A stretch of 64,000 nucleotides of DNA from assembly GCF_030149505.1 (NCBI RefSeq), contig NZ_JASBRN010000067.1, forward strand, positions 1 to 64,000, in the 5' to 3' direction. The notes beneath the pieces were generated by a model. It had not been told where the DNA came from. It ran no database searches and saw only the letters and a list, made by a program, of their open reading frames with translations. The stretch comes from Nocardioides sp. GTDB taxonomy: Bacteria; Actinomycetota; Actinomycetes; Propionibacteriales; Nocardioidaceae. A program made the translations under genes and the position numbers. This document shows positions 1 through 24,736 of the stretch, one piece after another; within the stretch, counting starts at the first letter, position 1, and every line of letters starts with the position of its first letter.

Positions 1-135
1 CCTACCGAGGCCATCAACGGCCGCCTCGAACACCTACGCGGATCAGCCCTCGGCTTCCGCAACCTGACCAACTACATCGCCAGGAGCCTGCTCGAGACCG
101 GCGGCTTCAGACCCCAACTACACCCCGGTCTGTGA
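1..135 (+). pseudogene. ISL3-family transposase, C-terminal fragment
   Basis: The reading frame is open from the first base and ends at the TGA at 133-135. Its 44 residues, including TEAINGRLEHLRGSALGFRN and ending LLETGGFRPQLHPGL, have the look of the C-terminus of ISL3-type transposases. The rest of the gene lies outside the window, so it may be intact there. The stop is followed directly by TGTGAAGAGCC (131-141), which resembles an ISL3 terminal inverted repeat (outer end GGCTCTT) and marks the end of the element just before the polysaccharide genes. Family recognition is from memory of these transposases; intact versus decayed cannot be decided here. Confidence 0.7.
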
Positions 136-141
136 AGAGCC
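131..141. repeat. ISL3 terminal inverted repeat, outer end
   Basis: TGTGAAGAGCC overlaps the transposase stop. A related GTGTAAGAGCC lies at 8023-8033 at the end of the other ISL3 relic, in the orientation expected for the opposite end of an element. Together they bracket the polysaccharide operon. Confidence 0.5.
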
Positions 142-262
142 CATAAAGGTCTCAGCGTGCGTGTCATGTCACTCGACAATCTCACGGAACGGGCGGCGGG
201 TGGCGCGCGCTGCCCTACCATGGGCGAGGACCTTGCCAGGAGTCTTGTATCGAGGGAGTGAA

Positions 263-1231
263 ATGAAGATGCCTAGGCGACTGCGTCTATTCTTCCAACT
301 TGTTTTCTCGTATTGGGCGGACGGCGTGCGTTTCGGTGCAAACTCTGGCGTTTTTAGATCCATGCAGCCTCAGGTTCTTGAAGCTCGCCTCATTAAAGAT
401 TACCACCGAGTCGAGAAGGGTCTCGCGCTGCCAGAACCTCGTCCCTGGTTCGGACAGGCTGTGCTGCAGCGGATCGCTGCGGACGTGGAGCGGTACGTGA
501 TGAGCGCGGAAGCGGACGACCAAGTTCTGCGGTCATTGCGTGCTGCCACGAATGTTTACGCGTCGAGTTGGTCCGAACCGCCCCCGTGGGTCAAGGATCT
601 GGTGATCCGCATCAACTCTGCGACCGGCGCAGCAGTGCTCCACGAGGGAGACGGTGTCGCCGGAATCGAGGACTACGAGCCGTTGGTGGACCCCAACGCC
701 AGCGACGTCGTCCGTCGGGCGCTACGGTCGAGGAGTAGTCTACGGAACTTCTCGGAGTGTCCCGTGCCGCGAGAATTGCTGGCGAGTGCGGTCAGCGATG
801 CTCTGTTCTCGCCAAGTGTCTGCAATCGACAAGCGACCCGAACGCGGTGGTTTCACCGTGACGACCCGCAGTTCCTCGTATGCCTCAAGCACCAGAACGG
901 AAACCGCGGTTTCGGTGATACGGCTCAATGGGTCGGACTTATCACCTACGACAACCGCTGCTTCCTGACGCCCGGCGAGAGGAATCAGGGCTATATCGAT
1001 GCTGGTCTCTTCACGATGACGCTGCAGTACTCCCTTCATGCCCAGGGTGTGGGAGCCTGCTGCCTGAACTGGAGCATGAACGCCCGCCAGGACCGGCGAC
1101 TCCGAGCGGACGTGACAATCCCGGATCACGAGACCGTCGTGATGATGCTCGCGGTCGGCTACCCCGCTCCAATGGCAAGGGCGACCGTGTCTCCTCGTCG
1201 GAGCTCCGCGACCGTTTTTCTGAACCAGTGA
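263..1231 (+). CDS. nitroreductase-fold protein of the polysaccharide cluster
   Basis: This 322-residue protein has an N-terminal part of unknown role (through LIKDYHRVEKGLALPEPRPW) and a C-terminal nitroreductase-like half. The C-terminal half starts at SSLRNFSE, includes SPSVCNRQATR and GYIDAGLFTMTLQYSLHAQG, and ends in MMLAVGYP, which are typical flavin-nitroreductase blocks. Such proteins usually bind FMN and use NAD(P)H; the substrate is unknown. Similar proteins occur in exopolysaccharide clusters beside pyruvyl transferases, where a role in modifying the glycan or carrier has not been defined. I chose the ATG at 263 because AGGGAG lies just upstream; the frame is open back to 161 and the ATG at 269 is equally possible. 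The stop overlaps the next start by 4 bases, so it is the first gene of the coupled operon. Confidence 0.7.
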   Translation: MKMPRRLRLFFQLVFSYWADGVRFGANSGVFRSMQPQVLEARLIKDYHRVEKGLALPEPRPWFGQAVLQRIAADVERYVMSAEADDQVLRSLRAATNVYASSWSEPPPWVKDLVIRINSATGAAVLHEGDGVAGIEDYEPLVDPNASDVVRRALRSRSSLRNFSECPVPRELLASAVSDALFSPSVCNRQATRTRWFHRDDPQFLVCLKHQNGNRGFGDTAQWVGLITYDNRCFLTPGERNQGYIDAGLFTMTLQYSLHAQGVGACCLNWSMNARQDRRLRADVTIPDHETVVMMLAVGYPAPMARATVSPRRSSATVFLNQ

Positions 1232-2247
1232 CCGCTGCCACTCCGGCTAGAGATGTGCCGCGAATCACCGTTCTCGTGTCGATGCCCGGTCCGGACGGGA
1301 CCACTCGCTTTGTCGACCAACTTGCGGACAGAGCGGACCCTTCAGTTCGTTACCTCTACTTTTCGTGGTTGAACGCCCTATTCCGCAGATATGACATCTT
1401 TCACGCACACTGGCCCGAGTTCCTTCTGCGAGCGAGCAGTCGTCGGGCCCGCATGGTTAAGCGCGCGCTTTTTGCTGCGCTTTTACTTAAACTCCGCTTC
1501 GGCCGGGTCTCGGTGGTGCGAACGCTTCACAACGAGACTCCTCACGAGTCCGGCGGTGCCCTCGAGGTAAGGCTCTTGCAGTGGCTGGACGGTCGAGTTG
1601 CTCATTACATCGCCCTTAATCCGTTCACGCGAGCTCCAAGATCGGCGGTGCCGACCACGGTTATCGCTCACGGCCACTATCGCGGCAGGTACCCCGCCGT
1701 AAGCCGGGACTCGATCAAGCCGGGGCGCATCCTGTATGCGGGGATGATCCGTGACTACAAGGGACTCGACATCCTGCTGCATGAGTTTGTTGCCTTGGCC
1801 CATGACGACCTAAGCCTTCGCATCGTCGGCAACCCGACGACGTCAGGGTGGCGCCGCACGATCGAGGATGCCTGTCGAGATGACGACCGGATTTCCGCCC
1901 ATCTGGGATTTGTTCCTGACGCGGACTTGGCGAAAGAGATCGGCGAAGCCGAGGTTCTCGTGTTGCCCTACCGTACTATGCACAACTCCGGGATCCTTAT
2001 GCTTGCCCTGTCGCTGGACCGATGCGTCGTGGTCCCGCGCACCCCCGTCAACGAGTGGCTCGCGGCAGAGGCCGGGCCGCAATGGGTCAGGTGTTTCGAC
2101 CCCCCGTTCAAGATGTCAGTCGTCCTTGACGTGATGCGGGACCGCGGTCGCTACGAGGGCTCCTCGCCACGGCTGACCGGACGCGATTGGGACACTGTGG
2201 CGATGAGGCACGCGACTGTCTATCGGGAGGCACTCAGTGGCCACTAG
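1228..2247 (+). CDS. glycosyltransferase, GT4/GT-B type
   Basis: A 339-residue predicted cytoplasmic glycosyltransferase. The N-terminal half contains YDIFHAHWPE and VRTLHNETPHESGG, a layout seen in GT-B enzymes. The C-terminal half has GRILYAGMIRDYKGLDILL and SLRIVGNPT, and then EVLVLPYRTMHNSGILMLAL, which matches the donor-binding E-x7-E region of GT4-type enzymes. It probably adds a sugar from a nucleotide-sugar donor to the growing lipid-linked repeat unit; donor and acceptor are unknown. The start is the GTG at 1228, which overlaps the preceding TGA. The frame is open further upstream to 928, but that part is a shadow of the nitroreductase gene. Confidence 0.8.
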   Translation: MTAATPARDVPRITVLVSMPGPDGTTRFVDQLADRADPSVRYLYFSWLNALFRRYDIFHAHWPEFLLRASSRRARMVKRALFAALLLKLRFGRVSVVRTLHNETPHESGGALEVRLLQWLDGRVAHYIALNPFTRAPRSAVPTTVIAHGHYRGRYPAVSRDSIKPGRILYAGMIRDYKGLDILLHEFVALAHDDLSLRIVGNPTTSGWRRTIEDACRDDDRISAHLGFVPDADLAKEIGEAEVLVLPYRTMHNSGILMLALSLDRCVVVPRTPVNEWLAAEAGPQWVRCFDPPFKMSVVLDVMRDRGRYEGSSPRLTGRDWDTVAMRHATVYREALSGH

Positions 2248-3694
2248 CCTGGGTAGCGCTGCGCGTTCCGGTCTCATCTCCACGGCTCTTACCCAGGCGC
2301 TCCGGGTCGCCGTGCAGTTGGTTTCGCTTGTCGCCTTATCGCGTATGGTCGCACCCTCCGCGTTCGGCGTGTTCGCCATCTGCCTAGTCGTCGTTGGTCT
2401 GGCGGAAGCGATGCGCGAGCTCGGGCTGTCTTCGGCCGCGATTCAGGCGGGCAGAATTACCGAAGACCAGCAATCATTTCTTTTTTGGCTCAATGTCGCG
2501 GCAGCCACCGTGCTTTCGGCCGTCACCTGCCTGCTGGCCGCACCCATCTCGTGGCTCTACGGCATGCCTGAACTCAAATGGCTGCTAGTTGCTTCGACGG
2601 TCATTTTCATCGCGAACGGCGCGGCAGCTCAATTCCGGGCCCGGCTGACCCGCGAGCTCCGCTTCCGGGCGATAGGCCTCGTTGACGTAACTAGCGTTCT
2701 ACTCGGGAGCCTGGCTGGGATTGTGGCCGCCAGCATGGGCGCTGGCGTGTGGGCGCTCTGGCTGCAACAGGCGGTCACCTTTGTGTGTTCCATGCTCGGA
2801 CTGGTATGTGCCAGCCGATGGCTACCCGCGTGGAGGTGGCGCGTCGAGGGTCGTCGCGACCTCCTAGGCGTGGGCGCGAACTTCGCCGGCATCCAGGTCG
2901 TCAACTACGTCGCGCGTAACGCGGACACGGCGGCGCTCGGACTCTTCGCAAGTTCTGGGACCGTTGGCCAGTACTCCCGAGCGTTCCAAATCATCTCCCT
3001 ACCCATTAGCCAGTTGAACGGGCCCGCTACGAAGGTCGCGTTCCCGGTGCTCTCCCGGCTTCGCGACGATCCCGCCCGCTTTCAAAGATTCCACATTGTG
3101 GGATCGATGGCGCTGGTGAACACAGTCGGTTCGCTCCTAGTATTCATCGCTTGCTTCTCGACAACGCTCGTCCCTTTCGTGCTGGGCCCAGGATGGGACC
3201 GCGCAGCGAGCTTGGCCGGTATTCTGGCTATTGCTGGCTTCAGCCAAACAGTCGGCTACGGGCTGTACTGGGTCTTTTTGGGGCAAGCGTGGAGTGGTGC
3301 GAACCTGCGGTACACCTTATGGAGCCGTGGTCTGCTGCTTGTAGCCGTCGTGGCTGCGGCTCCCAGCGGTGCCACCGGCGTCGCGATAGCCTTCTCGACG
3401 GTCTCCGTGTTGTCCGTCCCGTTCGCCATGTGGTGGCTGTCGACCCGGTGCGGCTATTCGATTCGGTACTTCGCGACGGCTGTCCTCCGATCGTTGTCGG
3501 TCTGCGTCGCAGCCGGTCTCGCGGCAGTGGGGGTGAGCTCGGTTTCGGTAGACGGAGCCGCCGCGACCCTCGCTGTGGGCGCGGCCGTCTATCTGGCGTG
3601 CATAAGTTTGGCTATAGCTGCCATCGGCCCCTACAGAGAAGACTTCATCCAGCTGTGGAAGATCGCACGCCCCACGACTACCGCAAAGGTTTGA
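2237..3694 (+). CDS. polysaccharide flippase, Wzx/MOP type
   Basis: A 485-residue integral membrane protein with about twelve to fourteen hydrophobic segments. It begins with the amphipathic start usual for lipopolysaccharide/oligosaccharide flippases (SGLISTALTQALRVAVQLVSLVALSRMVAPSAFGVFA). The motif NADTAALGLFASSGTVGQYSRAFQI followed by PATKVAFPVLSRLRDD is characteristic of the WzxC-like branch. It should move the undecaprenyl-linked repeat unit across the membrane. The GTG start at 2237 has GGGAGG at 2225-2230 and overlaps the glycosyltransferase stop by 11 bases. It is the only flippase in the window, so it is likely dedicated to this locus. A gap of 3 bases separates it from the next gene. 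Confidence 0.85.
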   Translation: MATSLGSAARSGLISTALTQALRVAVQLVSLVALSRMVAPSAFGVFAICLVVVGLAEAMRELGLSSAAIQAGRITEDQQSFLFWLNVAAATVLSAVTCLLAAPISWLYGMPELKWLLVASTVIFIANGAAAQFRARLTRELRFRAIGLVDVTSVLLGSLAGIVAASMGAGVWALWLQQAVTFVCSMLGLVCASRWLPAWRWRVEGRRDLLGVGANFAGIQVVNYVARNADTAALGLFASSGTVGQYSRAFQIISLPISQLNGPATKVAFPVLSRLRDDPARFQRFHIVGSMALVNTVGSLLVFIACFSTTLVPFVLGPGWDRAASLAGILAIAGFSQTVGYGLYWVFLGQAWSGANLRYTLWSRGLLLVAVVAAAPSGATGVAIAFSTVSVLSVPFAMWWLSTRCGYSIRYFATAVLRSLSVCVAAGLAAVGVSSVSVDGAAATLAVGAAVYLACISLAIAAIGPYREDFIQLWKIARPTTTAKV

Positions 3695-3697
3695 CAT

Positions 3698-4774
3698 ATG
3701 TCAGAGATTTACTATCTGTGTCGCGGGCAGGATGACAACATCGGAGACGTCGTCCTGCGAAGGGTGCTGGCGCGCTGGTCGGCCGAATGCGGGCGTATAC
3801 ACGTCTTTATGGGAGCCGCATCGGAGACTTTCGTCGCCTCAACCCTCGCGAGCGTGGGCGGTGACGTGAAGGTCTACACCTCAAAGCGGAAGTGGATGAT
3901 CGGACTCTTCCGCGACACGCTGCGAGGGAGAGGAGTACTGGTCTTCAATCCCGGTGAGCAGCGGCTAGAGATGAGGACGGCCTTTTCCCTCGTGCCCCTC
4001 CTGACCATCCAGGCCCTAGCTCGACTGAAGGGGGGCCGTCCGGCTCTGCGGGTCGGGGTCTGTCTGAAGCGGACCGTCGGTCTCGGCAGCCGCCTGAGTG
4101 AGACCTTGGTGCGGCAAAGCGTTCGGATGTCCGCGGTTAACGCATGGCGCGACACCGAGACCACCGTTCGGTTCCCGGGTCGGCCGTCCTGCGACCTAGC
4201 CTTTGCCGAGGGTTTGCAAGAGCGCGAGGTGTCGATCGCGCGCAAGCGCCAGATCCTTGCCGTGTCCTTGAGGCCTGACAGGCCCTTGGATCTGGCGTTT
4301 GCTGCTGACGTGATCTCCAGCTTCGCGCACGCTCACCAGTTAGTCGTCGTCTTCGTGGTTCAGGTAAGGCGAGACGCCGACCTAGCGCGTCGTATGTCGA
4401 AGCTCGTGCCTGAATCACGCGTTCTCGATTGGCCACGCCAGGTCGGTCACGGAGAACAGGAAGCGGCAGTGCGCGCCCTCTACCGCGAATCCCGGTACGT
4501 GGTGAGTGACCGGATCCATGCTCTCATCGTCGCCGTGACCGAGGGCTCGATCCCGATCGGTTTCGCGAGCGCCAGCGACAGCAAGACTCGCACGCACCTA
4601 TCTGCGGCCGGAATGCTGCATCCGGAGTGGTCGCGCGAGGAGGCGAACGCAGAGGATCTCACAGAATTCGCCGCGTTTGCATCCGAGACTCCAGCCTGGG
4701 GGGACCCGCTGCGGGCCGCCCGCGCCGAGTTGGCCGTTGTGCACGAGAAGTTCGTGGAGGCTGCACGTGGTTGA
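3698..4774 (+). CDS. polysaccharide pyruvyl transferase family protein (first copy)
   Basis: This 358-residue protein belongs to the WcaK/AmsJ/CsaB-like pyruvyl transferase family. The N-terminus has the family pattern of a short strand followed by DNIGDVVLRRVLARW, matching the usual N-x-GD block. The C-terminal half has RYVVSDRIHALIVAVTEGSIPIGFA, equivalent to the conserved SxRxH-A motif of the donor (phosphoenolpyruvate) site. Members add ketal-linked pyruvate to sugars, giving the polymer negative charge; some act on other acceptors, so the exact reaction is inferred. It starts 3 bases after the flippase stop, and its stop overlaps the following gene. A second family member lies at 6382-7578. 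Confidence 0.8.
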   Translation: MSEIYYLCRGQDDNIGDVVLRRVLARWSAECGRIHVFMGAASETFVASTLASVGGDVKVYTSKRKWMIGLFRDTLRGRGVLVFNPGEQRLEMRTAFSLVPLLTIQALARLKGGRPALRVGVCLKRTVGLGSRLSETLVRQSVRMSAVNAWRDTETTVRFPGRPSCDLAFAEGLQEREVSIARKRQILAVSLRPDRPLDLAFAADVISSFAHAHQLVVVFVVQVRRDADLARRMSKLVPESRVLDWPRQVGHGEQEAAVRALYRESRYVVSDRIHALIVAVTEGSIPIGFASASDSKTRTHLSAAGMLHPEWSREEANAEDLTEFAAFASETPAWGDPLRAARAELAVVHEKFVEAARG

Positions 4775-5507
4775 ACGCAGGTTCCTCGGTCCCTGGCGCC
4801 TTCCTGTCGACCCGTACTCGGCCGAGGAGATTGTTGCCTGGGTGAACGATCCGACAAAGACTGGCACCATCACCGGGTGCAACCTGCACAGCCTCTACCT
4901 GTACTGCGTCGACCCGGTTTTCCGGCGGGTCTACGACAAGTCCGCGGTGAGTCTGGCTGATGGTTCTCCGATCGCGTGGTTGGCGTCGCTGGCGTTCAGG
5001 AAACGGGTGCAGAAGGTGGGTTCGACGGACTGGTTGAGGATTCTTCCCCCGTCTCGCGCCCCGATCGTTGTGATCGGGGGATCGCCATCAGTGAACGCGG
5101 AGTTCTGTCGCCAGCTCCACGACCGCGAGGTCGGGACGTCGGGGATCGAGGGGATCGACGGGTACGATGGGCTCGCCGAGCTGCTCGCCGGCCGCCACCC
5201 GATAGGGGGGCCTTCGGCGGAGGCCAACCTTGTGATCGTGGGTCTCGGTATGCCCCTTCAGGAACACTTGGAGGCCAAGTTTCGCGCCTTCTTCCCCCGG
5301 TCGAAGATCGCGCTGGTCGGCGGTGCCCTGGATCAGTTGGTCGGTTACCAGCAACTCGCTCCCGCGTGGATGCGGTCTTCAGGGCTGGAGTGGATGTGGC
5401 GGCTCGTGCGTGACCCCAAGCGCCTGGCCTATCGGTATTTGATCGAACCCTTGAAACTGCCTGTCGCGACTTGGCGTTTGCTGCGCGAGAGGAGAGCAAG
5501 CTCATGA
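4767..5507 (+). CDS. WecG/TagA/CpsF family glycosyltransferase (GT26)
   Basis: A 246-residue protein with the GT26 layout: TGCNLHSLYLYCVDPVFRRV, then SVSLADGSP-like SAVSLADGSPIAWLA, then ANLVIVGLGMPLQEHLE, the conserved VGLGxPxQE motif. Members transfer N-acetylmannosamine(-uronate) or related sugars from a UDP donor to a lipid-linked acceptor early in the build-up of surface polymers. The Asp in LADGSP corresponds to the proposed catalytic base. The GTG start at 4767 follows GTGGAGG (4754-4760) and overlaps the previous stop by 8 bases. The upstream extension of the frame to 4677 is a shadow. The C-terminus ends in a basic stretch (VATWRLLRERRASS), consistent with membrane association. Confidence 0.85.
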   Translation: MVERRFLGPWRLPVDPYSAEEIVAWVNDPTKTGTITGCNLHSLYLYCVDPVFRRVYDKSAVSLADGSPIAWLASLAFRKRVQKVGSTDWLRILPPSRAPIVVIGGSPSVNAEFCRQLHDREVGTSGIEGIDGYDGLAELLAGRHPIGGPSAEANLVIVGLGMPLQEHLEAKFRAFFPRSKIALVGGALDQLVGYQQLAPAWMRSSGLEWMWRLVRDPKRLAYRYLIEPLKLPVATWRLLRERRASS

Positions 5508-6385
5508 CTGCCTCTTTGACCGTCATCATTCCGTCAGTGGGGCGGCCCGAGCTGTCGCGGGCGATCTCGTCGGTCCGCGACCAGACGGTTCGCGTAGAGG
5601 TCATCGTCGTTCTCGACGACCCCAGCGCACAGAATGCCGTGAGGTCGATGCTGCGCGAGGACGAGCGCCTGGTGATCACACCTGGCCGGCGCGGCGGAGG
5701 CTTCGCCAGAGCCGCCGGCACTGAGTTGGTTGAGACCATCTACGTGGCCTATCTGGACGACGACGATTGGTGGGAGCCGGACAAGGCTGCCGAGATGGTC
5801 CAAGCGATGGAGGACGCTCACGCCGAAATTGGCTGGAGCTCCGTGCGGTTCCGTGCCAACGGTAAGGCCGACCGCATCCTCCCTGAACAACCGTTCGAGC
5901 CGGGGCAGCGGATGCTGGACTATTTGGTTCTCCGACCCGGCCTCCGACACGGCTACGGCTACGTCCAATCCTCAGCGTTGGTCTGCAGGACGGACCTAGC
6001 GGCTTCGGTGGGCTGGGATCCAGGTCTGCGGAAACACCAAGACTGGGACTTCGTCTCTCGGGTCTTCGATGAGGCCCACGGCCACGTCTTCGTGGATCGG
6101 CCACTTGTGAACGTCGCGCAGGACAGCGCAGGATCCATTTCCCGGCGACGCGACTGGCGCGACAGTCTGCCATTCTACAAGCGTCACGCGGCGGGAATGG
6201 GGCGCCGCGCCCGGGGTGACTTCGTGATGGTGCACCTAGCGCGCTCAGCGTTCGCCTCAGGCGAATTCGCGCGAGGAGTGAGCTTCGCACTGCGCGGGGT
6301 GGGGTCCGTGCCGCACGTTGCGGCGGTGATTAGTGCCATGTTCGGCGTTGTTGAGTGGTCTCGAAGAAGGAGGATCGGTCGGTGA
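5504..6385 (+). CDS. glycosyltransferase family 2
   Basis: This 293-residue protein is a GT-A fold glycosyltransferase. It starts with the classic strand-loop TVIIPSVGRPELSRAISSV, has a nucleotide-sugar/metal-binding acidic run YLDDDDWWEPDKA, and later GYVQSSALVCR and HQDWDFVSRVF, which occupy the usual acceptor-side positions. It would add one sugar of the repeat unit on the cytoplasmic face. ATG 5504 overlaps the previous TGA (ATGA) and has GAGAGGAGAG upstream; residues before it in the open frame are a shadow. It overlaps the next gene by 4 bases. The sugar specificity cannot be read from the sequence. Confidence 0.85.
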   Translation: MTASLTVIIPSVGRPELSRAISSVRDQTVRVEVIVVLDDPSAQNAVRSMLREDERLVITPGRRGGGFARAAGTELVETIYVAYLDDDDWWEPDKAAEMVQAMEDAHAEIGWSSVRFRANGKADRILPEQPFEPGQRMLDYLVLRPGLRHGYGYVQSSALVCRTDLAASVGWDPGLRKHQDWDFVSRVFDEAHGHVFVDRPLVNVAQDSAGSISRRRDWRDSLPFYKRHAAGMGRRARGDFVMVHLARSAFASGEFARGVSFALRGVGSVPHVAAVISAMFGVVEWSRRRRIGR

Positions 6386-7578
6386 GTCCAAAGGCGATGG
6401 TGTTGCGGGTACTGAGCGTGCCGGCCGCAATCGCGCTACTTGTCGCCCGGCTCCTCCCGTCCCGCTCGGCCAGTCCCGGGGCTGCGAACACCGCGAGCGC
6501 GCCGGCAGTCCTCCTTGCCCCGCCAGGCGGCGGGAACATTGGCGACGAGGCCATGGTGGCGTCGTTCATCAAAAACACGCCTGGCGAGGTTCTTGTCGTC
6601 GTGCGAAGGCGAGCCGATATCCGAATCCTGAGTACGGTCGAAAACAGGGTATCGGTGGTCGAGATGCCCCACCTGTTCTACCGCCGCTCCCTCAGGGCAC
6701 TCGTCGACCTGGGGCGTTATTGGAGGCTGTTAGGGCACGCTCGCAGCGTTGCGCTCGTCGGTGCCGACATCATGGACGGGGCGTACAACGAGGACGCGTC
6801 CGTCGCTCGCGCTCAGGCCCTTGAACTCGCTCGGCGCCGAGGATTGGACGTCCGAGTCCTCGGCTTCAGCTGGAATGGAACCGCGAGTGCCCGTGCAACG
6901 CACCATCTTCGGCGCGCTTCCGAAAGCGGCGTAATCATGTGCGTCCGAGACGAGTTCTCGCTCGCGCGTATCGTGCGTGACGGAATCTCATCTACAAGGC
7001 AGGTTTCCGATGTCGTGTTCGCCCTCTTTGGGGATCCAAGTGAGCAGGATCTTCCTCAGCGGGATCGGGTCATCGTGAACGCCAGCGGGCTCGTCGCCAG
7101 AGATGGGAACATGACATCGACGTACGCCAATGTGTGCTCGGATTTGGTGTCTCGCGGCTACTCAGTCACACTCCTCCCCCACGTGATTCGTGGCGGCGGT
7201 GACGACCTCGCGGCCTGCCGTGCTGTCGCGGGTCGGCTACCGGCCGGAACCGTGGAGGTGGTCGAGGGGCTGCTGTCGCCCTTCGAGGTCTACGACCTGT
7301 GTCGAAGAGCCGCACTCGTCGTCTCAGGACGGATGCATCTTGGGGTCATTGGGCTGTGTGCCGGAGCGGTGCCAGTCCTCATCTCGACGCAGGGGAAGGT
7401 AGAGGGGCTGATGAAGTTCTTCGGTCTGGAGGTTAACGCTGTTCCGATCGTGAGCGGCCAGGTGGCCACTCTTCCGGCGGTCGTGGAGGCCGCGCTTGAT
7501 TCCCTAGACGAGATGTCGGCCCGCGTGGACAGAGAGTTGGCGCGCGTACGTCACCTCGCGAGCGGCAACTTCGAATGA
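6382..7578 (+). CDS. polysaccharide pyruvyl transferase family protein (second copy)
   Basis: A 398-residue relative of the protein at 3698-4774. After a hydrophobic N-terminus (LRVLSVPAAIALLVARLLP, a possible membrane anchor) comes APPGGGNIGDEAMVASFI, the family N-x-GDE block. Near the C-terminus RAALVVSGRMHLGVIGLCAGAVPVLIS corresponds to the SxRxH-x-A donor-site motif. It is longer than the first copy, mainly in the N-terminal anchor and the central RDEFSLARIVRDG segment. The start is the GTG at 6382, overlapping the previous TGA and preceded by GAAGGAGG (6366-6373). It is the last gene of the coupled operon. Two pyruvyl transferases in one locus suggest two modification sites, or that one acts on a different acceptor. 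Confidence 0.8.
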   Translation: MSPKAMVLRVLSVPAAIALLVARLLPSRSASPGAANTASAPAVLLAPPGGGNIGDEAMVASFIKNTPGEVLVVVRRRADIRILSTVENRVSVVEMPHLFYRRSLRALVDLGRYWRLLGHARSVALVGADIMDGAYNEDASVARAQALELARRRGLDVRVLGFSWNGTASARATHHLRRASESGVIMCVRDEFSLARIVRDGISSTRQVSDVVFALFGDPSEQDLPQRDRVIVNASGLVARDGNMTSTYANVCSDLVSRGYSVTLLPHVIRGGGDDLAACRAVAGRLPAGTVEVVEGLLSPFEVYDLCRRAALVVSGRMHLGVIGLCAGAVPVLISTQGKVEGLMKFFGLEVNAVPIVSGQVATLPAVVEAALDSLDEMSARVDRELARVRHLASGNFE

Positions 7579-8122: not shown

Positions 8123-8127
8123 CTAGT
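8083..8127 (+). pseudogene. ISL3-family transposase, last codons only
   Basis: A few codons reading [12 protein letters not shown] before a stop resemble the C-terminal RPQLHPGL of the transposase fragment at the left edge. The following CTGCGAAAGCC again looks like an ISL3 end. It overlaps the 3' end of the sugar transferase by a few bases. This is a short match and could be chance, but the same motif twice near ISL3 ends argues for a relic. Confidence 0.35.
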
Positions 8128-9595
8128 ACGCGCCACGACTCCCTAAGACGGCGCCTAAGGTGCGTCCCAGGATCGAAAGGTCTTGAAGCATCGACCAGTT
8201 GTCTACGTAGTAGAGGTCCAAGCGGATCGCTTCGTCCCAGGGCAAATCCGAGCGCCCCGACACCTGCCACAGGCCAGTCATTCCGGGACGTACATGCAGT
8301 CGACGGCTTGCGCTGTCGTCGTACTTCTCCACTTCGATAGGGAGCGGCGGTCGCGGTCCTACAAGGCTCATCTCGCCGGTAAGGACGTTGAACAGCTGCG
8401 GGAGCTCGTCGATCGAGTAGCGGCGGAGCCAGCGGCCGGGGCGCGTGACGCGGGGATCGCACTCCATCTTGAAGAGCCCCTGCGTGTACCCGACTTGGGC
8501 GTGGAGTTCAGTCAGGCGAGCTTCGGCGTCAACGACCATGGTGCGGAACTTGCGGCAGGCGAACTCCTCTCCGTTGCGCCCGATGCGGGTCTGATGGAAG
8601 AAGACGGGCCCCCGGTCATGGAGCCACACGCCCAGGGCTGCGAAGACCAGGAGAGGTGTAAACGCCAGGATGAGGGCGCTCGAGCCCACCACGTCGAAGG
8701 TGCGCTTGCCCCATCGGGAGGCGTCAGTCCACGTCGGGGGATCAATGTGGATGAGCGGCAGACCGCCCACGGGACGGATCTTGATCCGCTCGCCGGAGAT
8801 GTCGCTCACGGAGGGAGCGACCACGACCTGGATGTTGTGCCGCTCCAGGTCCCATAGCGCCTTGCGGAGCTGACTGGAGGCGCCGATTGATCCGCCGGCG
8901 AAGAAGATGACGTCGGCGTCCATGACTACGGCTAGTGCCGTCACCTCGTTGGCGTTGCCGACGACGGGGACTCCGGTCGCCGTCTCCTCGCTGAGGTCGT
9001 ACTCTGGGGTGAGCGCTCCCACCACTTGGTAGCCGAGCCAGGATTCGCGTCTCAGGACCACAGCGATCTCGTCGACATGGGAGCGGGACCCGGCGATAAG
9101 GACGCGCTGCCGCAGCACTCCACGGGTGCGAGCCGTCTGGATGGCGCGCCGGAGCACCAGCCGTCCTGTCAACAGGGCGGGGACCCCGAGGAAGAACGCC
9201 ATGAGGAAGAAGCCTCGGGAGAGCGAGAAGTTCGCGAGGTAGCACCCGACCCCAGCGAGGCCTGCCGCGAGGAGGCTGGCGTTGAAGACCCGCTTGTACT
9301 CATCGAGGCCGGCGCCGAAGACATCGGTGCGGTAGCCGCCAGCGACTGCAATAGTGGCCACCCAGCCGAGGATCATCAGCGGGCCGGCGAAGGTCAGCGT
9401 GCTCTCGACGTCTGCCGAGGCGGTGAAGATGGCCAACTCGCGACGCCCGACGATGGCCACCAGGCCCACGACGAGCATGATGGTGAGGTCGATGACCAGG
9501 GCGGTGAGCGGCAGTGCCCGGAGGTAGCGGCTGCGGGCGCCCGCAGCCCAGCGAGTCGTGGTGTCCGACAACAGCGTCATTTCAGCTGATCCCAT
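8123..9595 (-). CDS. polyprenyl-phosphate sugar phosphotransferase (exopolysaccharide priming enzyme)
   Basis: A 490-residue membrane protein of the WbaP/CpsE type. Residues about 25-150 hold four to five membrane spans. A nucleotide-binding-like cytoplasmic domain follows ([17 protein letters not shown], then [10 protein letters not shown]). A further span ([21 protein letters not shown]) leads into the catalytic domain with [45 protein letters not shown] and [15 protein letters not shown], all hallmark bacterial sugar-transferase motifs. It transfers a sugar-1-phosphate from UDP-sugar to undecaprenyl phosphate, starting synthesis of the polymer encoded next door. I chose the ATG at 9595 with GGGCGGAG just upstream; the ATG at 9580 is possible. 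The frame is open back to 10690 only as a shadow. Confidence 0.9.
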
Positions 9596-9877
9596 GTCTC
9601 CGCCCAGGGGCGGGTTTCGCCGTTGCCCCTCCGCACTGAGTGGCTTATCCCGTCCGCGCCGCATCTGAAGCGCGAAGCGCACTTTACGTTTCGCCGTGCT
9701 GATCTGCATCTCCTCGGCGTTACACCTTGATGAACACCCTGAGGGGTGAGAGGCCTTCATTGCACCACGGCAGGCGCCCCTTGCGGTCTGGTCCAGACAC
9801 ATCATCCGGGGGTCGCAGGCGAGCGCGTTCGCGCGCCTGAGACGCTGGTGTCCACGACTTCCGGTGATGAGGTGGAG

Positions 9878-18133: not shown

Positions 18134-18223
18134 GACCCGAGCGTGCACGGGGTCGAGTGAAGCACGGAGGGTTTGCCTGGGCCGAAGTGACGGCTGCCCG
18201 GTCCGGGGCTCGTGGGGGCTCCC

Positions 18224-18229
18224 TAGGGT
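18224..18229 (+). promoter_or_regulatory. -10 box of a leaderless promoter
   Basis: TAGGGT fits TANNNT, with 6 bases to the GTG at 18236, as in the other leaderless promoters listed here. Transcription would start at or next to the start codon. Confidence 0.5.
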
Positions 18230-18235
18230 GTTCGC

Positions 18236-18445
18236 GTGACCGCCCACCGCCTCGTGCTGCTCGTCGCCGGGGCGTGCCTCACCGTGCTGACCCTGATGTT
18301 GCTCGTCATGCCGTCCGCGGCGATGGGGCGGGTGCTCGTTGACTTCCGGGGGCACGGGTTGCACCAGGGCGACGTCCCGGTGCTCGGGGTGTGGGCGATC
18401 GGGGTCGGGGCGCTGGCGTGGGGGTGGCGGCGGGGGTGGGGGTAA
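18236..18445 (+). CDS. small two-span membrane protein
   Basis: A 69-residue protein, starting GTG 18236, with two hydrophobic segments: LVLLVAGACLTVLTLMLLVM and VLGVWAIGVGALAWGW. There is no ribosome site, but a TANNNT box lies 6 bases upstream, which fits a leaderless message and supports the start. The function is unknown. Confidence 0.5.
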   Translation: MTAHRLVLLVAGACLTVLTLMLLVMPSAAMGRVLVDFRGHGLHQGDVPVLGVWAIGVGALAWGWRRGWG

Positions 18446-18501
18446 GTCTCTCCCGCCCGAGTGAGCGGCAGGCTCGGCTCGGCGCCGCTACCCTTGGCCG
18501 G

Positions 18502-18642
18502 GTGTTGGACGCCGTGTTGATCTTGCTAGCGGTCGTGGCGCTGTGGGCGGCCTTCGAGTTCGGTCCAGAGCCGTGGCCCAAGGTGGTGCTGGGCCTCGCG
18601 TGCGCCCTTCTCGTCATCGGCTTGTTCCGAGTGGCGTTCTGA
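18502..18642 (+). CDS. very small membrane protein
   Basis: A 46-residue frame from GTG 18502, with two hydrophobic stretches (VLILLAVVALWAAFEF and VVLGLACALLVIGLFRVAF). TACCCT at 18489-18494 sits 7 bases before the GTG, again a leaderless layout. The frame is open further upstream (to 18391), but that part is low-complexity. It ends 11 bases before the polymerase-like gene. Confidence 0.4.
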   Translation: MLDAVLILLAVVALWAAFEFGPEPWPKVVLGLACALLVIGLFRVAF

Positions 18643-18653
18643 GCCGCCCCGCA

Positions 18654-20042
18654 GTGTCCGAGCGCGAGGTGCCGAACCTGCTGAGTCGCGGGCTCTACGC
18701 CTTCCTGCTGGTCGCGGGCGCTCTCGGCGTCGTGACCATCGGCGGGTTCAGCCCGCTTCCGGTGACGACCCTTCTCGACGGCTGGATCATCTTGCTCATC
18801 CTTGCCGCGATCGTGAGAAGTCGCATTAGCCACCTCCGAGCCCTGATGCTGCTCGGCGGGTACGCGCTGACGCGAGCCGTGCCTATCTACTTCAATGGCG
18901 CGCCAATGGAGGACTTCCTCCAGGCGTACCGATGGCTGCTGTACCTCGTGGCGTTCGTGCTGGCCACCGGAATGCGATGGGGGCAAGATCGGATGCTGCG
19001 ACGCGTGATTCTCGCCCTGATCGGCATGGCGCTGGCGAAGGCATCGCTGTCCTTCGTGATCCTGGGGGCCCGGGAGCGCCCCGGCTTGCTGATCGAGAAC
19101 AACTTCGAGATCGCCATGTTCTGCGGGCTCACCCTGGTGATCTACCGCAGCTTGACGCAGACGCAGCGATTCCTGGCGCTCGCCATGCTGGCCGCGCTGA
19201 TGGTCCTCTCGGGCTCTCGGAGCGGCGCGGTGGCCTTCGCGGTGCTGGTGATCTACGCCCTGTCTCAGACCAAGGCAACGACTGCCACCAAGTCTGTCGC
19301 CGGGCTGTATGCCCTGCCGGTGATCGCCGCCGTCCCGATCCTCGTCTTCGTCGAGCGGTCCCGGGGAGCAACCCAGATCGACCGCCTGAACTTCCTCGAC
19401 GTGTTCCGGTTCGAGACCCGCAACTGGGACGCGGTGTCGTGGCTCATCGGCACCGAGCCGATCACACCGCTGTCTCAGGCATCGTGCATCCGACTGTCCT
19501 ACTACGAGCTACTGTTCTCCTCGACTGGGGACGGGAACTGCTACTCGGTGATCATGCACGCCTTCGTGCTACGAGTCCTGTTCGACGCCGGGCTGATCGG
19601 ACTGGTCGTCGCGTTCGCGGTTCCGTGGATCGCCATGCACTGGGCCAAGGTGCCCACGGCAACGGCGCTGGGGCTGCTCGGGATCGCCGCCAGCAACAGT
19701 CTGTCGGTCAGCGGCCTGAACAACCCCTACGTCGCGCTGCCGATCCTCCTTGCCATCACGCTCGGGCCGTCAGTTCGCCGAGCGACTCAGTTCATACCAG
19801 TTGATGCCGTCGCTTACGAGCGTCAGCGTGTCGTTGGTCGTGGGCGTGAAGTCGCCGTTGAGGTTCAAGGTTGTGCCGTTGTCTCGGATCGGCTGAGGGG
19901 ATGCGTTCGTCCAGATGATGCGAACGACGCGCCCGGGGCGGTGGCCCAGCACGGAGGTGATCTCCTGCGAGGCCGAGACGATGATCGTGTCCGAGTTCGA
20001 GGGCGCTCGCACGGCGCCCGTGACGACCGAGCGCGTAGGTAG
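18654..20042 (+). CDS. O-antigen polymerase/ligase-like membrane protein
   Basis: A 462-residue frame with about ten to eleven transmembrane segments up to residue about 380. It has the layout of Wzy/WaaL proteins: repeated spans, VLSGSRSGAVAFAVLVIYAL (the usual SGSRS-x-G motif), a large loop (about 225-290, RLNFLDVFRFETRNWDAVSW and ASCIRLSYYELLFSSTGDGN), and more spans. It would polymerise or ligate a lipid-linked glycan outside the membrane. GTG 18654 is the probable start; earlier codons in the frame are shadow. The last about 80 residues are hydrophilic and read antisense through the 3' end of the next gene, so the original stop was probably lost. Visible GC is lower than in neighbours, suggesting transfer. 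Confidence 0.7.
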   Translation: MSEREVPNLLSRGLYAFLLVAGALGVVTIGGFSPLPVTTLLDGWIILLILAAIVRSRISHLRALMLLGGYALTRAVPIYFNGAPMEDFLQAYRWLLYLVAFVLATGMRWGQDRMLRRVILALIGMALAKASLSFVILGARERPGLLIENNFEIAMFCGLTLVIYRSLTQTQRFLALAMLAALMVLSGSRSGAVAFAVLVIYALSQTKATTATKSVAGLYALPVIAAVPILVFVERSRGATQIDRLNFLDVFRFETRNWDAVSWLIGTEPITPLSQASCIRLSYYELLFSSTGDGNCYSVIMHAFVLRVLFDAGLIGLVVAFAVPWIAMHWAKVPTATALGLLGIAASNSLSVSGLNNPYVALPILLAITLGPSVRRATQFIPVDAVAYERQRVVGRGREVAVEVQGCAVVSDRLRGCVRPDDANDAPGAVAQHGGDLLRGRDDDRVRVRGRSHGARDDRARR

Positions 20043-21305
20043 AGACTCGCTGCCGAGGTCGTTGCCACTGACGACGTTGCTGTTCCCGACGAGTCCGGTT
20101 GATGGCCCAAGCGCCCCGCTAAGTACCCGTTGTCGACGGAAGTTGTTTCCCGAGATGGTGTTGTTGTCGGCAGACCCTGCTTCGGAGTAGGCGTAGGAAG
20201 TGGTTAGGGCACCGCCCGCCCTGCCTGGGTAGGGGATGGCCGGAGCGGTAACGTAGGAGCCAGCAGAGACGGCGGTGGTGTCGTCCCACACGATGTTCCC
20301 GGTGATGGTCCACTCGGTGCCGCCATCGTTTCGGATCCCGGAGAAGGACAGGCTGTTGGTGCCGGTGTTGGTGACGCCGTTGCGGAAGAACTGGTTGCCG
20401 ACCAGCGCGCCCTGGGGGGCGTTCAAGATGCTGAGTCCGCAGGCGGCGTTGCCCCAGGACTTGCCGCCCGTGAGCACGTTGCCCCGGCTGCCGGAACCAT
20501 TCACGTAGACGCCGTGGACGTTGTTGGTCTCGGCCTGCCAGTTAGCGAGTTGGTTGCTGCCAGAGTTGAGGTAGAAGCCGTGGCCGTCGGTGGCGTCCTC
20601 TATGCCGTTGCCCCACGAGTGGACGTTGGTGAGGTTCTGAGAGCCCTCATCAAGGCGGATGCCGGACTTGCCGCACTGTCCAACGTCGATGTTGGACCAC
20701 ATGCCGTCGGTGGAAGACGAGGAGGCGGTGGTCTGGATGCCGTAGTTCTTGCAGAGTCGGATGATCAGGTCAGAGAGGTGAGTGGCGAGCGCCCCGGCTG
20801 CCTTACCGATGGTGACGCCGTTCGCTGCCGACTTAGTGAGGAAGCAGTCCACGACCGTGGTGTAGCCCGCGTTGAGGACGATGAGGTCTCCACCGGACGG
20901 GGCGTTGGTGACGTTCCCGTCGATACCCAGGTGCGCCACCCCGGACTTTGCGGCGGCCAGGGTCAGAAGGTCGGCGGTCGCGCCTGCCTTGCGGAAGAGG
21001 ATCGCCTGGTCCTTGCCCGTGCCCTGAACCGTGCAGCGACTGTTGATGGTATGTCCACCACTGGTGACGTACCGCCCTGGCGGGAAGAACAGGATGCCGG
21101 TGGTGTCACCGAATACGTTGACGACGGCCATAGCGGCAATGGCTGCGTTGATGGCTGCGGTGTCGTCAGTGCTGCCGTCGCCGAGAGCGCCGTAGTCCTT
21201 GACGTTGTAGAGCAGTGACCCCTTCCCGACGAAAGAGGCCGACTGACGAGATTTCTGCGTGAGTTCCCGAGAGCCGACCTGTGGATGACGGGGGCCGCAG
21301 ATCAC
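19770..21305 (-). CDS. right-handed beta-helix protein, pectate-lyase/phage-tailspike-like
   Basis: About 511 residues. NVKDYGALGDGSTDDTAAINAAI is the entry motif of the pectate-lyase-3/GH28-type beta-helix found in phage tailspikes and depolymerases. Next come PPGRYVTSGG and many NxxxNxxxG repeats (for example GNVLTGGKSWGNAACGLSIL, NNTISGNNFRRQ), typical of the helix rungs. The C-terminal NLNGDFTPTTNDTLTLVSDG resembles tail-fibre ends. GTG 21305 is one possible start (ATG 21341 is another), both of which overlap the next gene's 5' region. Base content is visibly less GC-rich. It converges on, and overlaps by 273 bases, the polymerase-like gene. It is probably of phage or horizontally moved origin and may cut or bind surface polysaccharide; I cannot see catalytic residues with certainty. 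Confidence 0.75.
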   Translation of the reverse strand: MICGPRHPQVGSRELTQKSRQSASFVGKGSLLYNVKDYGALGDGSTDDTAAINAAIAAMAVVNVFGDTTGILFFPPGRYVTSGGHTINSRCTVQGTGKDQAILFRKAGATADLLTLAAAKSGVAHLGIDGNVTNAPSGGDLIVLNAGYTTVVDCFLTKSAANGVTIGKAAGALATHLSDLIIRLCKNYGIQTTASSSSTDGMWSNIDVGQCGKSGIRLDEGSQNLTNVHSWGNGIEDATDGHGFYLNSGSNQLANWQAETNNVHGVYVNGSGSRGNVLTGGKSWGNAACGLSILNAPQGALVGNQFFRNGVTNTGTNSLSFSGIRNDGGTEWTITGNIVWDDTTAVSAGSYVTAPAIPYPGRAGGALTTSYAYSEAGSADNNTISGNNFRRQRVLSGALGPSTGLVGNSNVVSGNDLGSESLPTRSVVTGAVRAPSNSDTIIVSASQEITSVLGHRPGRVVRIIWTNASPQPIRDNGTTLNLNGDFTPTTNDTLTLVSDGINWYELSRSAN

Positions 21306-21317
21306 GGTCGGGTAACG

Positions 21318-22672
21318 GTGTCCCGGTGGCCTGTGGAGCACCCTCTATCCGGCCCAGAACTGTCGGTGCTCGCTGGTTGTCTGGACCACATGGAAGTTCT
21401 CGGGCAGCACGTCGTGGACCGCGGTGTCGCGGTCGCGGGTGCTGCCCTGGCCGAGCTCGGTGAGGCCTCCCTGCTGGGGCTGGACCAGGCGGCGGTGGCC
21501 GGATCGCTCGTGGCGCTGTCGGCGCTCGAGGCACAGGTAGCCGAGCTCAAGCACCGGGTGGTCGCACACGCGGTGGACGTGCGGGTCGAGGAGCCGACGG
21601 GTGCGACCACGACCGCTACCTGGCTGGCGCGCGCGACGCGGACCACGCGACGGTCCGCGCGTCGTGCGGTGCACCTGGCCGAGGCGCTGGAGCGGTTCGC
21701 GCTGGTGCGCAGGGCGATGGCCGCGGGCGGGGTCAACCTCGAGCAGGCCACGGTGGTCGTGCGGGCACTAGAGGAACTGCCCTCGGACCTGCCGACCTGG
21801 GTGATCGCCGAGGCGGAGCGGGCGCTGGTCGAGCTCGCCGCGTCCCACGACGCCGACGACCTCCGGGTGCTGGGCGACCGGGTGCTCGCCCTCGTCGCCC
21901 CCGAGGTCGGGGAGGCCCACGAAGCCGCGCAGCTGGCTGCGGCCGAGAAGGACGCGGAGCGAGCCACGAAGCTGACGCTGACACCGGACGGGTCGGGGCG
22001 GGTGCACGGCCGGTTCGTCGTCCCCGAGCTGCACGCCGCGATGCTGCGCAAGATGCTGATGGCGCTGGTCGTGCATGACCGGCCGGCGGCCGACGCGGCC
22101 GCCGAGGCGCAGGGGGCCGACTGTGCCGATGGGGCTGTGCCGGGCGGCGGCCCGGTCCGGCGTGCGTCGGCGGACGAGCTCGGCCGGGCAGTCTGCGAGC
22201 TGCTGGAGCGGCTCGACGGGCGCGAGGCGCCGAAGGTCGGCGGCACCGGCGCGACGGTCGTGGTGACGATGACGCTGGAGACGTTGCAGGGCGGGCTGGC
22301 CTCGGCGGTGCTCGATACCGGCGACCGGGTCGCCGCCAGACGGCCCGCCGGCTCGCCTGCGAGGCCGGGATCGTTCCCGTCGTGCTCGGTGGGAAGGGCC
22401 AGGTGCTCGACCAAGGGCGGAAGCAGCGCTTCTTCACCACAGCGCAGGTCATCGCGTTAGGAGCGCGGGACGGCGGGTGCACCGCGGAGGGCTGCCGTAC
22501 GGCGGCGTGGTTCTGCCACGCCCACCACGACGATCCCTGGTCGACCGGCGGGCGGACCGACCTGGCGCGCGGCCGGTTGCTGTGTCCCAGTCACCACCGG
22601 CGGGTGCACGACCCGGCGTACGAGCATCGGGTCACGGGGGACAACCGGGTGCTCTTCACCAGGCGGACGTGA
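21318..22672 (+). pseudogene. DUF222-HNH endonuclease gene split by a frameshift
   Basis: The first part (about 340 residues, to about 22337) is a DUF222 domain: helical, with VAAGG-type AMAAGGVNLEQATVVVRALEELP and SGRVHGRFVVPELHAAMLRKML. The HNH part continues in another frame at about 22338: QTARRLACEAGIVPVVLGGK, CTAEGCRTAAWFCHAHH, then LLCPSHHRRVHD, a complete Cys4/His HNH site. Inserting one C into GCCGCCAGA (22332-22340) would restore one frame, so a single-base deletion is the simplest cause. These genes are common, repeated and often decayed in actinobacteria; they may be restriction-like or mobile. GTG 21318 is a guess for the start. A sequencing error cannot be excluded. Confidence 0.75.
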
Positions 22673-22795
22673 GTCGCGTGTCGTGATCGATCCAGTCCAG
22701 ACCGGTTGAGCCGTCGCGGGACTCCGAGGAGACCTCCTCGTTGCCCGGTCAGGAGCGCGCCCATGCGGTCCGCACGACCGAAGGAGGACTCCCGG

Positions 22796-24040
22796 GTGAC
22801 GATCATGCGACGCATCTTCGGTGCCGTGGTGGCACTGCTGCTCCTGGGCGGGCCGAGCGCGGCGTACGGCGTCGCGTCGTTGACCGCGCGGGATGCGGAG
22901 GCGGAGCCGGACCCGTCGATCAAGTCGTGGGTGATCACCGACGGCACGCTGAACGCGACCTGGGCGGTGCCGCCGGAGCGAGCATCCGATGTCGTGCGCT
23001 TCATGAGCTACGTCTGGCTGGGCGACGACGACTCCATCGTGACGGAGCGCGGCCCCTACGTCCGGGAGGAGAGCGTCGACCTGTCGCACGTTCCTGACGG
23101 CACGCGCGTGGGCTATCTCCTGGAGGTGACATGGACGTCGGGCATGACGACCCGTGCCAGCGCTGCCGGCACCAAGGGCGACGCACCCGAGCTGACGTTC
23201 GAGGCGATAAGTCACTCCGAGGACGACCTGCTCGAGCTGCGCTGGGTCCTGCCGCCGAGCGAAGCGGAGGTCCTCGGCTACGAGGTCGAGCTGATGATGT
23301 CCTCGATCCCACCGGACCAGGAGGAGACCTCGTTCCACGAGACGACCGAGCCGGTGCTGCTGGTGCCCTTCCCGTATGGCCGGTCCTTCGGGACCTTCCG
23401 CCTCCGTCCGCTCACGAACGACGGGCCGGGGACGTGGTCGAAGCGGTTGTCCTTCTACTACGAGGACGTGCTTCCCGCACCGACACGGCTCACCGTGAAG
23501 CCCCGTGCAGGAGGGTTCCAGGTGGGCTGGAGGTTCAACGCCGGCGCCGGTACTCCGTCGTCGTGGCTGGTCTCGCTCGACGGCGAGCCGGTGCAGGTGA
23601 AGGTGAAGCGCTACAACTACGGGCACAAGGCACTGCTGCTCGGGCTCCCGTCGGACTCCGAGCACACCGTCACGGTGCAGTCGGTCGGTCCGGATGGACC
23701 GGGACTGCCCGCGTCGCTGACGGCCAGGACCGCGGGAGGGCCCCGGCAGATGCCGGCCCCGGGGGTGTCGCCCGGGTCGGCTGGTGGCTCGCTCTCGGTG
23801 ATGGTGTCCTGGCGGGACCCGGACTGGGGCGGGGCTTCACCGTGCTGCTTTCGGATCACAGCCATCGGTCGTTCCGGCTCGGGGGAGAAGGCACGGGTCC
23901 AGCGCTTCGCGGACGCCTCGACCCGGCGGCTGGACTTCGCGGTGGGCGCCGTGGGCCCGTGGCGGTTCGTGGTCGAGGCCAAGACCGGAGCCGGGTTCTC
24001 GCCGCTGTCGGCCGCGAGCACGAGAGTGCGCGCCCGCTGA
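22796..24040 (+). CDS. secreted fibronectin-type-III-like protein
   Basis: A 414-residue exported protein. After GTG 22796 comes MRRIFGAVVALLLLGGPSAAYG, a signal peptide. AAGGAGG (22781-22787) is 8 bases upstream and fixes the start. The rest is beta-strand-rich, with three or four Fn3-like modules: LELRWVLPPSEAEVLGYEVEL, PTRLTVKPRAGGFQVGWRF, and SLSVMVSWRDPDWGG. Such proteins act at the surface in binding or adhesion; no catalytic motif is visible. The open frame upstream of 22796 is shadow. Confidence 0.7.
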   Translation: MTIMRRIFGAVVALLLLGGPSAAYGVASLTARDAEAEPDPSIKSWVITDGTLNATWAVPPERASDVVRFMSYVWLGDDDSIVTERGPYVREESVDLSHVPDGTRVGYLLEVTWTSGMTTRASAAGTKGDAPELTFEAISHSEDDLLELRWVLPPSEAEVLGYEVELMMSSIPPDQEETSFHETTEPVLLVPFPYGRSFGTFRLRPLTNDGPGTWSKRLSFYYEDVLPAPTRLTVKPRAGGFQVGWRFNAGAGTPSSWLVSLDGEPVQVKVKRYNYGHKALLLGLPSDSEHTVTVQSVGPDGPGLPASLTARTAGGPRQMPAPGVSPGSAGGSLSVMVSWRDPDWGGASPCCFRITAIGRSGSGEKARVQRFADASTRRLDFAVGAVGPWRFVVEAKTGAGFSPLSAASTRVRAR

Positions 24041-24116
24041 ACCACGACCCGGTGCGCGGTGCGACTCACCGGGGGCCTCTGGTTGAAACGGCCGTCGGTG
24101 GGGCAGAGTCGCGCCC

Positions 24117-24291: not shown

Positions 24292-24516
24292 CTAGCGTTT
24301 CCACAGGGCGTCGATCTGCGCGTTGCGCCGACCTACCGAAGCCGCGAAGGTCTGCGAGTCAGCTCCAAGGCGCTCAAGAAGCCGAGCAAGGTCGTGATCG
24401 GTTGCGGTGGTATCGCGGTGATGAGCTATTTCTCTGCGGGTACTGCCGGGCCAGTAGCGGCAGCGGTGGCCGGCGGGTCAATCTGCTCGTGGGGCATGGC
24501 TGTCGATGCTTGGTAA
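24292..24516 (+). CDS. possible small membrane protein
   Basis: An open frame after a stop at 24289-24291, ending TAA at 24514-24516. The C-terminal part is hydrophobic and Gly/Ala-rich (VVIGCGGIAVMSYFSAGTAG, then PVAAAVAGGSICSWGMAV), like a single or double membrane span. Usable starts are GTG 24394 or ATG 24421. It overlaps the start of the next small gene by 11 bases. It is unrecognised and too short for a firm call. Confidence 0.3.
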   Translation, partial: LAFPQGVDLRVAPTYRSREGLRVSSKALKKPSKVVIGCGGIAVMSYFSAGTAGPVAAAVAGGSICSWGMAVDAW

Positions 24517-24736
24517 GTTCACGAAAGTGAAGGCTCGTCGCTCGTCGCCGCCTACGCCCATCAGCAACGTCGCGCTCGTCGCCGGCGTCGGGTTCGTACC
24601 ACCGGTGGCTTGGGGCCTGTTCCGTGGGACTCTCGACCTGGCTGAATTCTTGCTCATCACGGCGATCGTTCTTCTTGCTGCAGTCATCACCTGCGTGCTC
24701 AGCGTCAGGGCCTACCGAGAGCGCGAACAGGACTGA
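24506..24736 (+). CDS. small two-span membrane protein
   Basis: A 76-residue protein from ATG 24506 with a basic N-terminus and two spans (ISNVALVAGVGFVPPVAWGLF and FLLITAIVLLAAVITCVLSV), then a charged tail. No family is recognised. The following 128 bases to the convergent gene hold nothing I can name. Confidence 0.45.
   Translation: MLGKFTKVKARRSSPPTPISNVALVAGVGFVPPVAWGLFRGTLDLAEFLLITAIVLLAAVITCVLSVRAYREREQD

Follow-up and report, generated by a model that had tools for sequence, protein, structure and literature searches.

We analysed a window of 64,000 nucleotides from Nocardioides sp. (contig NZ_JASBRN010000067.1, positions 1 to 64,000), in which two open reading frames (ORFs) of low GC content face each other: a Wzy-like polymerase ORF on the forward strand (18543..20042, with a GTG at 18654 usable as start) and a beta-helix, tailspike-like ORF of 523 amino acids on the reverse strand (21341..19770, first start GTG 21341). 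As a first-pass annotation of this DNA had described, the two are convergent and overlap over 273 nt (19770-20042). The lower GC that it reported was likewise borne out, with all six 500-base blocks from 18500 to 21499 at 0.634-0.658, against 0.70-0.76 in 29 and 0.658-0.694 in five of the 34 remaining blocks between 10000 and 29999. The edges of this block of about 65% GC are sharp, near 18500 and 21500, and the pair departs in composition from the DNA on either side; the block at 24500-24999 equals its low level.

Both genes lie in a foreign insert of about 2.84 kb (18436..21273). Horizontal acquisition had been proposed for the pair, and it is supported by the sister genome G270, closest among 147 genus genomes as judged from the flanking phosphoesterase (94% identical), which has both flanks, about 50 other bases at this site in place of the 2.84 kb, and no copy of it elsewhere. 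By blastn, window positions 18221-18441 correspond to L099 3277-3057 of that genome and 21274-22678 to L099 3008-1581. The insert is present as a single copy in its own genome; by DNA search it was absent from G270, G139, G296 and G189, the two matches in G139 (30 to 42 bases) being too short to count, and the same junction was seen in no third genome. We infer an insertion in the window rather than a deletion in G270. The junction had also been called recent; our data set only bounds on its age, namely that the sister species lacks the insert and that the tailspike frame has stayed open. Codon-usage distances did not tell the insert, the exopolysaccharide (EPS) genes described below and the chromosome apart.

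The beta-helix protein proved to be related to phage proteins, as had been supposed. Its residues 38-523 match phrog_33904, 'tail fiber protein', at an expectation value (E) of 4.8e-120, and it matches PF12708 in Pfam at 1e-13. A tblastn search found five phage records representing three phages, all of Rhodococcus (Peregrin, ReqiPoco6 and ReqiPepy6), at 42-45% identity; pairwise, the identity to Rhodococcus phage tail fibres is 46% and 42% over nearly the full length, covering the beta-helix and the C-terminal domain, and the C-terminal end coincides exactly with the end of the phage proteins. These full-length kin are annotated as tail fibre or hypothetical proteins and are known here from phage genomes. 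Unlike them, the insert has no counterpart of the first ~27 (Peregrin) or ~42 (ReqiPoco6) residues, and the N-terminal virion-attachment part is missing. Only bases 19770-21272 of the gene belong to the insert; residues 1-23 are encoded by host DNA that G270 has too and, from window 21296 on, G139 as well. In-frame ATG, GTG or TTG codons before residue 71 are limited to GTG 21341 and GTG 21305, each of which lies in host DNA. Because the phage N-terminus is missing and the only upstream starts lie in host DNA, the ORF is, to judge from its sequence, a 5'-truncated tailspike-derived fragment with a frame that is still open, and not a working tailspike. On viral contigs, 61 loci were confirmed to encode relatives, mostly over short N-terminal stretches, with two near-full-length matches (L005 and L043). 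Weak kin occur in five other family genomes (294 searched) and 22 other class genomes (394 searched), nearly all matching the N-terminal part only, and none was found in plasmids. The structure model is weak, with a predicted local distance difference test (pLDDT) score of 58, so its best solved folds, AlgE epimerases, serve as a mere sanity check.

The polymerase has a conserved core of 373 residues (18654..19772, forward strand) with no stop and no frameshift. Searches with its sequence against Pfam, NCBIfam, PHROGs and the PDB sequences brought up nothing noteworthy; PF04932 and PF14296 match neither it nor its relatives L113, L115, L122 and L123, and the matches of L114 (PF14296 8.1e-5, PF04932 0.005) and L121 (PF04932 0.017) all fall below cut-off. 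An AlphaFold (AF2) model, with a predicted template modelling score (pTM) of 0.74, has the multi-helix arrangement of the WaaL fold, and the nearest solved structure is the O-antigen ligase WaaL (7tpg_B; Z 17.9, 335 residues aligned, root-mean-square deviation 4.9; Foldseek E 1.1e-4 for the model). FtsW/RodA chains come next at Z up to 9.7, amid unrelated helical proteins of similar Z. The HX10G motif is present as H302-X10-G313, invariant across 11 sequences. With this predicted WaaL fold, the motif and relatives in EPS clusters, the polymerase gene looks real.

Among 198 family genomes, the polymerase was found in its own genome only (E 0.001). In 394 class genomes there were, apart from the own copy, two clear relatives (E 4e-58 and 4e-46) and a further four that are doubtful (E 0.003-0.08); plasmids held none. 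A scan of genome_contigs gave nothing with the polymerase as single query and 11 loci with an alignment-based query: Serinibacter (49% identity), a contig labelled Stenotrophomonas (47%), Paeniglutamicibacter (45%), three in Blastococcus, two in Kineosporia babensis, and one each in Raoultella, Photobacterium and Halomonas. These include L116, which, from its equal length, is apparently the same contig as L111. The link to surface glycans that had been suggested holds for the relatives, which sit mostly in EPS clusters: most have glycosyltransferases, Wzx, WecG, acetyltransferases or priming transferases as neighbours (read by eye; L113 by Pfam). In the tree, the window wzy groups with those of Serinibacter, Paeniglutamicibacter and the 'Stenotrophomonas' contig (100/100). 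This last contig (L115), recorded as Stenotrophomonas maltophilia P13, possibly represents contamination, and its wzy groups with actinobacterial ones.

Beyond the core, the polymerase ORF runs on for 89 residues antisense to the tailspike gene (19773..20042, forward strand). This tail had been called shadow-like, in agreement with its GC at codon positions 1/2/3 of.88/.54/.53, compared with.63/.45/.88 in the wzy core. Its residues (374-462) have pLDDT nearly all below 50, and no conserved tail was found in ten aligned relatives, which end 8-47 residues past the column of window residue 373. Only 4 of the 524 codons of the tailspike gene are of the kind that can stop the in-register antisense frame (TTA, CTA, TCA). 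Among 5000 synonymous shuffles of the tailspike gene, the mean open run was 88.5 codons, and runs of at least 89 codons occurred in 45%. The overlap length is a chance outcome once the polymerase frame reads on, and the tail is fortuitous. A selected overlapping-gene arrangement, for which the 273 nt would be long in a convergent pair, is contradicted by the shuffles (P = 0.45), the mirrored codon-position GC, the relatives and the low pLDDT; we rule out a functional antisense overlap and give its selection next to no credence. The end of the core falls at most two codons from the tailspike stop (19770-19772), so the polymerase probably lacks the stop that it once had, and its frame continues to the first blocking codon of the tailspike gene.

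An EPS locus (161 to ~9700, 60-67% GC) lies about 9 kb left of the insert. Its forward-strand gene block (161..7578) comprises a nitroreductase-like gene, a family 4 glycosyltransferase (GT4), Wzx, a pyruvyltransferase-like ORF (3698-4774; assigned by eye, no Pfam match), WecG, a family 2 glycosyltransferase (GT2) and a pyruvyltransferase, and no wzy was found among these genes. A WbaP-type priming sugar transferase stands on the reverse strand (8123..9700; PF02397 match at 8144-8707) and is the sole PF02397 match in the genome. The sister genome keeps WbaP (80%) with a different EPS block, in which a gene of ten helices by crude hydropathy, with no match above a curated cut-off, adjoins WbaP. 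The Serinibacter locus L113, which has the closest wzy (49%), also carries homologs of GT4, Wzx, the pyruvyltransferase-like ORF, WecG and GT2 at 32-40%. Among the 11 other wzy-family loci, GT2 homologs occur in three, WecG in five and WbaP in five; no homolog of GT4, Wzx or the pyruvyltransferase-like ORF was seen in any of them.

A truncated Wzy_C gene was found at the edge of this locus. We examined 80 stretches at the ends of contigs, which represent 43 of the other 87; one of them, on contig C44 (L231), carries the left flank of the EPS locus, at 85.7% to G270 over 2930 bases. The end of C44 encodes the C-terminal half of a Wzy_C protein (L231:86-880) with an in-frame stop upstream (PF04932 E 2.3e-7, 31.1 bits, just below the cut-off of 31.7). 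The window contig, C36, starts within the right end of an ISL3-family element (1..141, forward strand) that consists of the transposase C-terminus (1-132; PF01610 E 4.3e-5, 23.9 bits, cut-off 23) and a terminal 12-mer. This 12-mer, CTGTGAAGAGCC, is common to both contig ends, directly after the transposase stop in the window and at the Wzy_C frame start on C44; by simple counting the chance expectation for such a match is ~0.003. The left end of the element presumably lies on C44, against the truncated Wzy_C gene. Given the target-duplication habits of ISL3 elements, the 5' half of the Wzy_C gene seems to have been deleted rather than displaced, because the bases outside the two ISL3 ends differ. 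One assembly gap aside, the EPS locus has at its edge a Wzy_C gene that is cut off, as read from the two contig ends, at an ISL3-type end. The idea of an EPS locus simply without wzy was dropped once the truncated gene was seen on C44. Allowing up to two mismatches, we saw no copy of the terminal 12-mer close to the insert. Another ISL3-like remnant extends over 7945-8014 by match and to ~8118 by eye. ISL3 pieces stand at both edges of the window EPS block, and in a comparison of window 161-8118 with L147 the block between WbaP and the cysDN side differs in the sister genome.

Linkage of this wzy family to beta-helix genes was seen elsewhere. In Kineosporia babensis (L123), a family wzy is flanked on one side by an integrase (phrog_1, 1.8e-26) and on the other by a convergent beta-helix gene, which we presume to encode a tail fibre from an N-terminal motif and from its place. 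Next to it are tail-fibre families and then a large terminase (1.1e-79), and a tailspike-like gene is found beyond the integrase. As in a conversion module, the window pair sets a surface-modifying gene beside a tail fibre gene, and L123 holds a similar pair. The polymerase of L123 is 69% identical to a second K. babensis wzy (L120) that stands beside glycosyltransferase-like genes (tree 100/100). Because the window and Kineosporia polymerases group apart in the tree, their association with phages would represent separate captures.

Beta-helix genes were also observed beside or near wzy of this family in EPS clusters of Blastococcus (L111 8015-9535, L117 and L118, just upstream of wzy) and Raoultella (L119 10808-11989, within three genes of wzy), so the linkage recurs beyond phages. 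These loci, together with the AlgE epimerases as best solved folds for the weak model, would fit a reading of the beta-helix protein as an EPS-cluster lyase or epimerase and of the pair as a piece of an EPS cluster. We disfavour this reading as improbable: the protein matches Rhodococcus phage tail fibres at 42-46% over its full length, including the C-terminal domain, but the Blastococcus beta-helix protein at only E 0.002.

We tentatively favour, at slightly under an even chance, the explanation that the insert is the decayed remnant of a prophage conversion module of tailspike and wzy, whose Wzy now serves the EPS locus. The wzy would have come together with the tailspike on a temperate phage. 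In such phages the tailspike would bind or cut the host polymer, and the phage Wzy would relink the repeat units into a polymer that sister phages no longer match. The native wzy would then have been broken and the phage-derived Wzy have become the polymerase of the EPS locus, which would explain an open wzy despite the vanished prophage and the startless tailspike. For this explanation speak the empty site in G270, the tailspike kinship, the Kineosporia pair of wzy and beta-helix gene, the WaaL fold and HX10G, the cluster kinship with L113, the Wzy_C gene 5'-truncated at an ISL3-type end, and the published Acinetobacter baumannii prophages and K loci cited below. Prophage origin and function of the insert are what we infer from these observations. 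The further claim, that a phage-delivered Wzy is the sole EPS polymerase in an actinobacterium whose native wzy was destroyed by an insertion sequence (IS) and whose prophage decayed to wzy and tailspike, is possible but doubtful.

Several results weigh against this explanation. Polymerase relatives were found neither among 50,697 phage records nor in pattern-based scans of IMG/VR, the three closest wzy relatives are all in EPS-type clusters, and only L123 among the 11 loci could be shown to be in a prophage. In that region the beta-helix gene matches phrog_32881, 'pectin lyase activity', of category moron and not tail, and a search of the Kineosporia genome for a portal (PF04860) found none. 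The insert itself has three ORFs only, with no integrase, att repeat or further phage gene, which leaves it without the prophage context of a conversion module. By crude hydropathy, no multi-helix polymerase-like gene stands beside the tailspike relative in L005 or L043. No second Wzy of this family was found in the own genome, where other Wzy families were not sought genome-wide, and, with the start of C36 falling within the ISL3 element, the assembly gap could hide an intact wzy; at the other ISL3 end, the initial 90 bases of C44, reversed, gave no Pfam match. A search by sigma-70 consensus found no promoter-like site near the polymerase gene. Finally, the insert ends have no common word of at least 8 bases, direct or inverted, and we rejected a single clean mobile element on that ground, together with the missing match to the ISL3 12-mer close to the insert.

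These repeat-free junctions would also suit a composite scar, in which illegitimate end joining put a displaced native wzy of this EPS type tail to tail with a tailspike piece of an unrelated phage, and both into the chromosome. The wzy core, whose end is at most two codons from the tailspike stop, is consistent with such joining, as are the closest wzy relatives in EPS clusters, one of them with five of the window EPS genes. However, this would leave unexplained why a polymer-making and a polymer-binding gene are paired, and in the convergent order of the Kineosporia prophage; we consider it rather unlikely. It is unlikelier still that the insert is dead DNA with both genes unexpressed or useless. 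The tailspike has no start codon inside the insert before residue 71, and the run-on tail and the lack of a promoter-like site point the same way, but the Wzy core is unbroken with its invariant residues kept and a WaaL-like model, and the genome holds no second Wzy of the same family.

Phage-borne polymerases that alter surface polysaccharides are known in Gram-negatives, and it is the setting that is new here. In A. baumannii prophages, wzy lies near a depolymerase gene, with altered capsule linkage, and in the prophage pairs one lies near the integrase and the other near the far end; protection from related phages by the changed capsule is the authors' speculation (PMC13228068). The wzyPh1 gene is always in a prophage, with independent acquisition by several phages probable (PMC9241936). 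The window resembles the wzy1Ph and wzy2Ph prophages in having a polymerase of the same kind near a depolymerase-type gene and outside the polysaccharide locus (PMC13228068, PMC9241936). It differs in that most wzyPh are in integrase-bearing prophages (two wzy1Ph prophages are remnant-like) with capsule structures determined, whereas the window holds a 2.84 kb scrap in an actinobacterium, known here from sequence alone.

In some A. baumannii K loci, wzy is missing or IS-interrupted with a replacement elsewhere, and an additional wzy may lie in a prophage (PMC9676051). The K loci with GI-1 or GI-2 wzy share with the window a broken locus polymerase and an intact wzy elsewhere on the chromosome, although the island content differs; the window wzy sits with a phage tailspike. 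In the window, the insert's polymerase plausibly replaces the broken one. Wzy-beta of Pseudomonas phage D3 has an HX10G motif with an essential His (PMC4815439), and the window polymerase, if likewise phage-acquired, would be similar; Wzy-beta differs in that it concerns a Gram-negative O antigen and is part of a three-gene converting unit. Curtobacterium prophage regions carry depolymerases and some polysaccharide genes, and the accessible part of the source mentions no Wzy-type polymerase (PMC9862828). Among the matches listed in open-licence literature, none concerned a Wzy encoded by a phage in actinobacteria. If the favoured explanation is true, phages also shape actinobacterial exopolysaccharides, and a gene that outlasted the decay of its prophage reveals what the host retained. 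A second case would be the prophage region of Kineosporia, whose genome holds a further wzy at 69% identity.

The remaining features adjoin the insert. A small host gene of 69 amino acids (18236..18445, forward strand; 94% identical in G270) forms the left junction with its final codons, and directly 5' of the polymerase lies a hydrophobic ORF of 46 amino acids (18502..18642, forward strand), for which tblastn found no clear relative in the compared loci (best foreign E 0.22) and all Pfam matches were below cut-off. The right end of the insert falls in the leader of a host DUF222 gene (21345..22460, forward strand; PF02720), whose frame is disrupted before the HNH-like part; over window 21345-22680, the G270 copy is open further. 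Next door, a fibronectin-III-like gene (22678-24055) is missing at the same site in G270, a second presence/absence event, and relatives of it occur in nine other genomes among the 147 genus genomes searched. A dispersed repeat of ~46 bases, perhaps a repetitive extragenic palindromic (REP)-like element, is found at window 15033, 15986, 27358, 29205 and near 62320, and also in G270.

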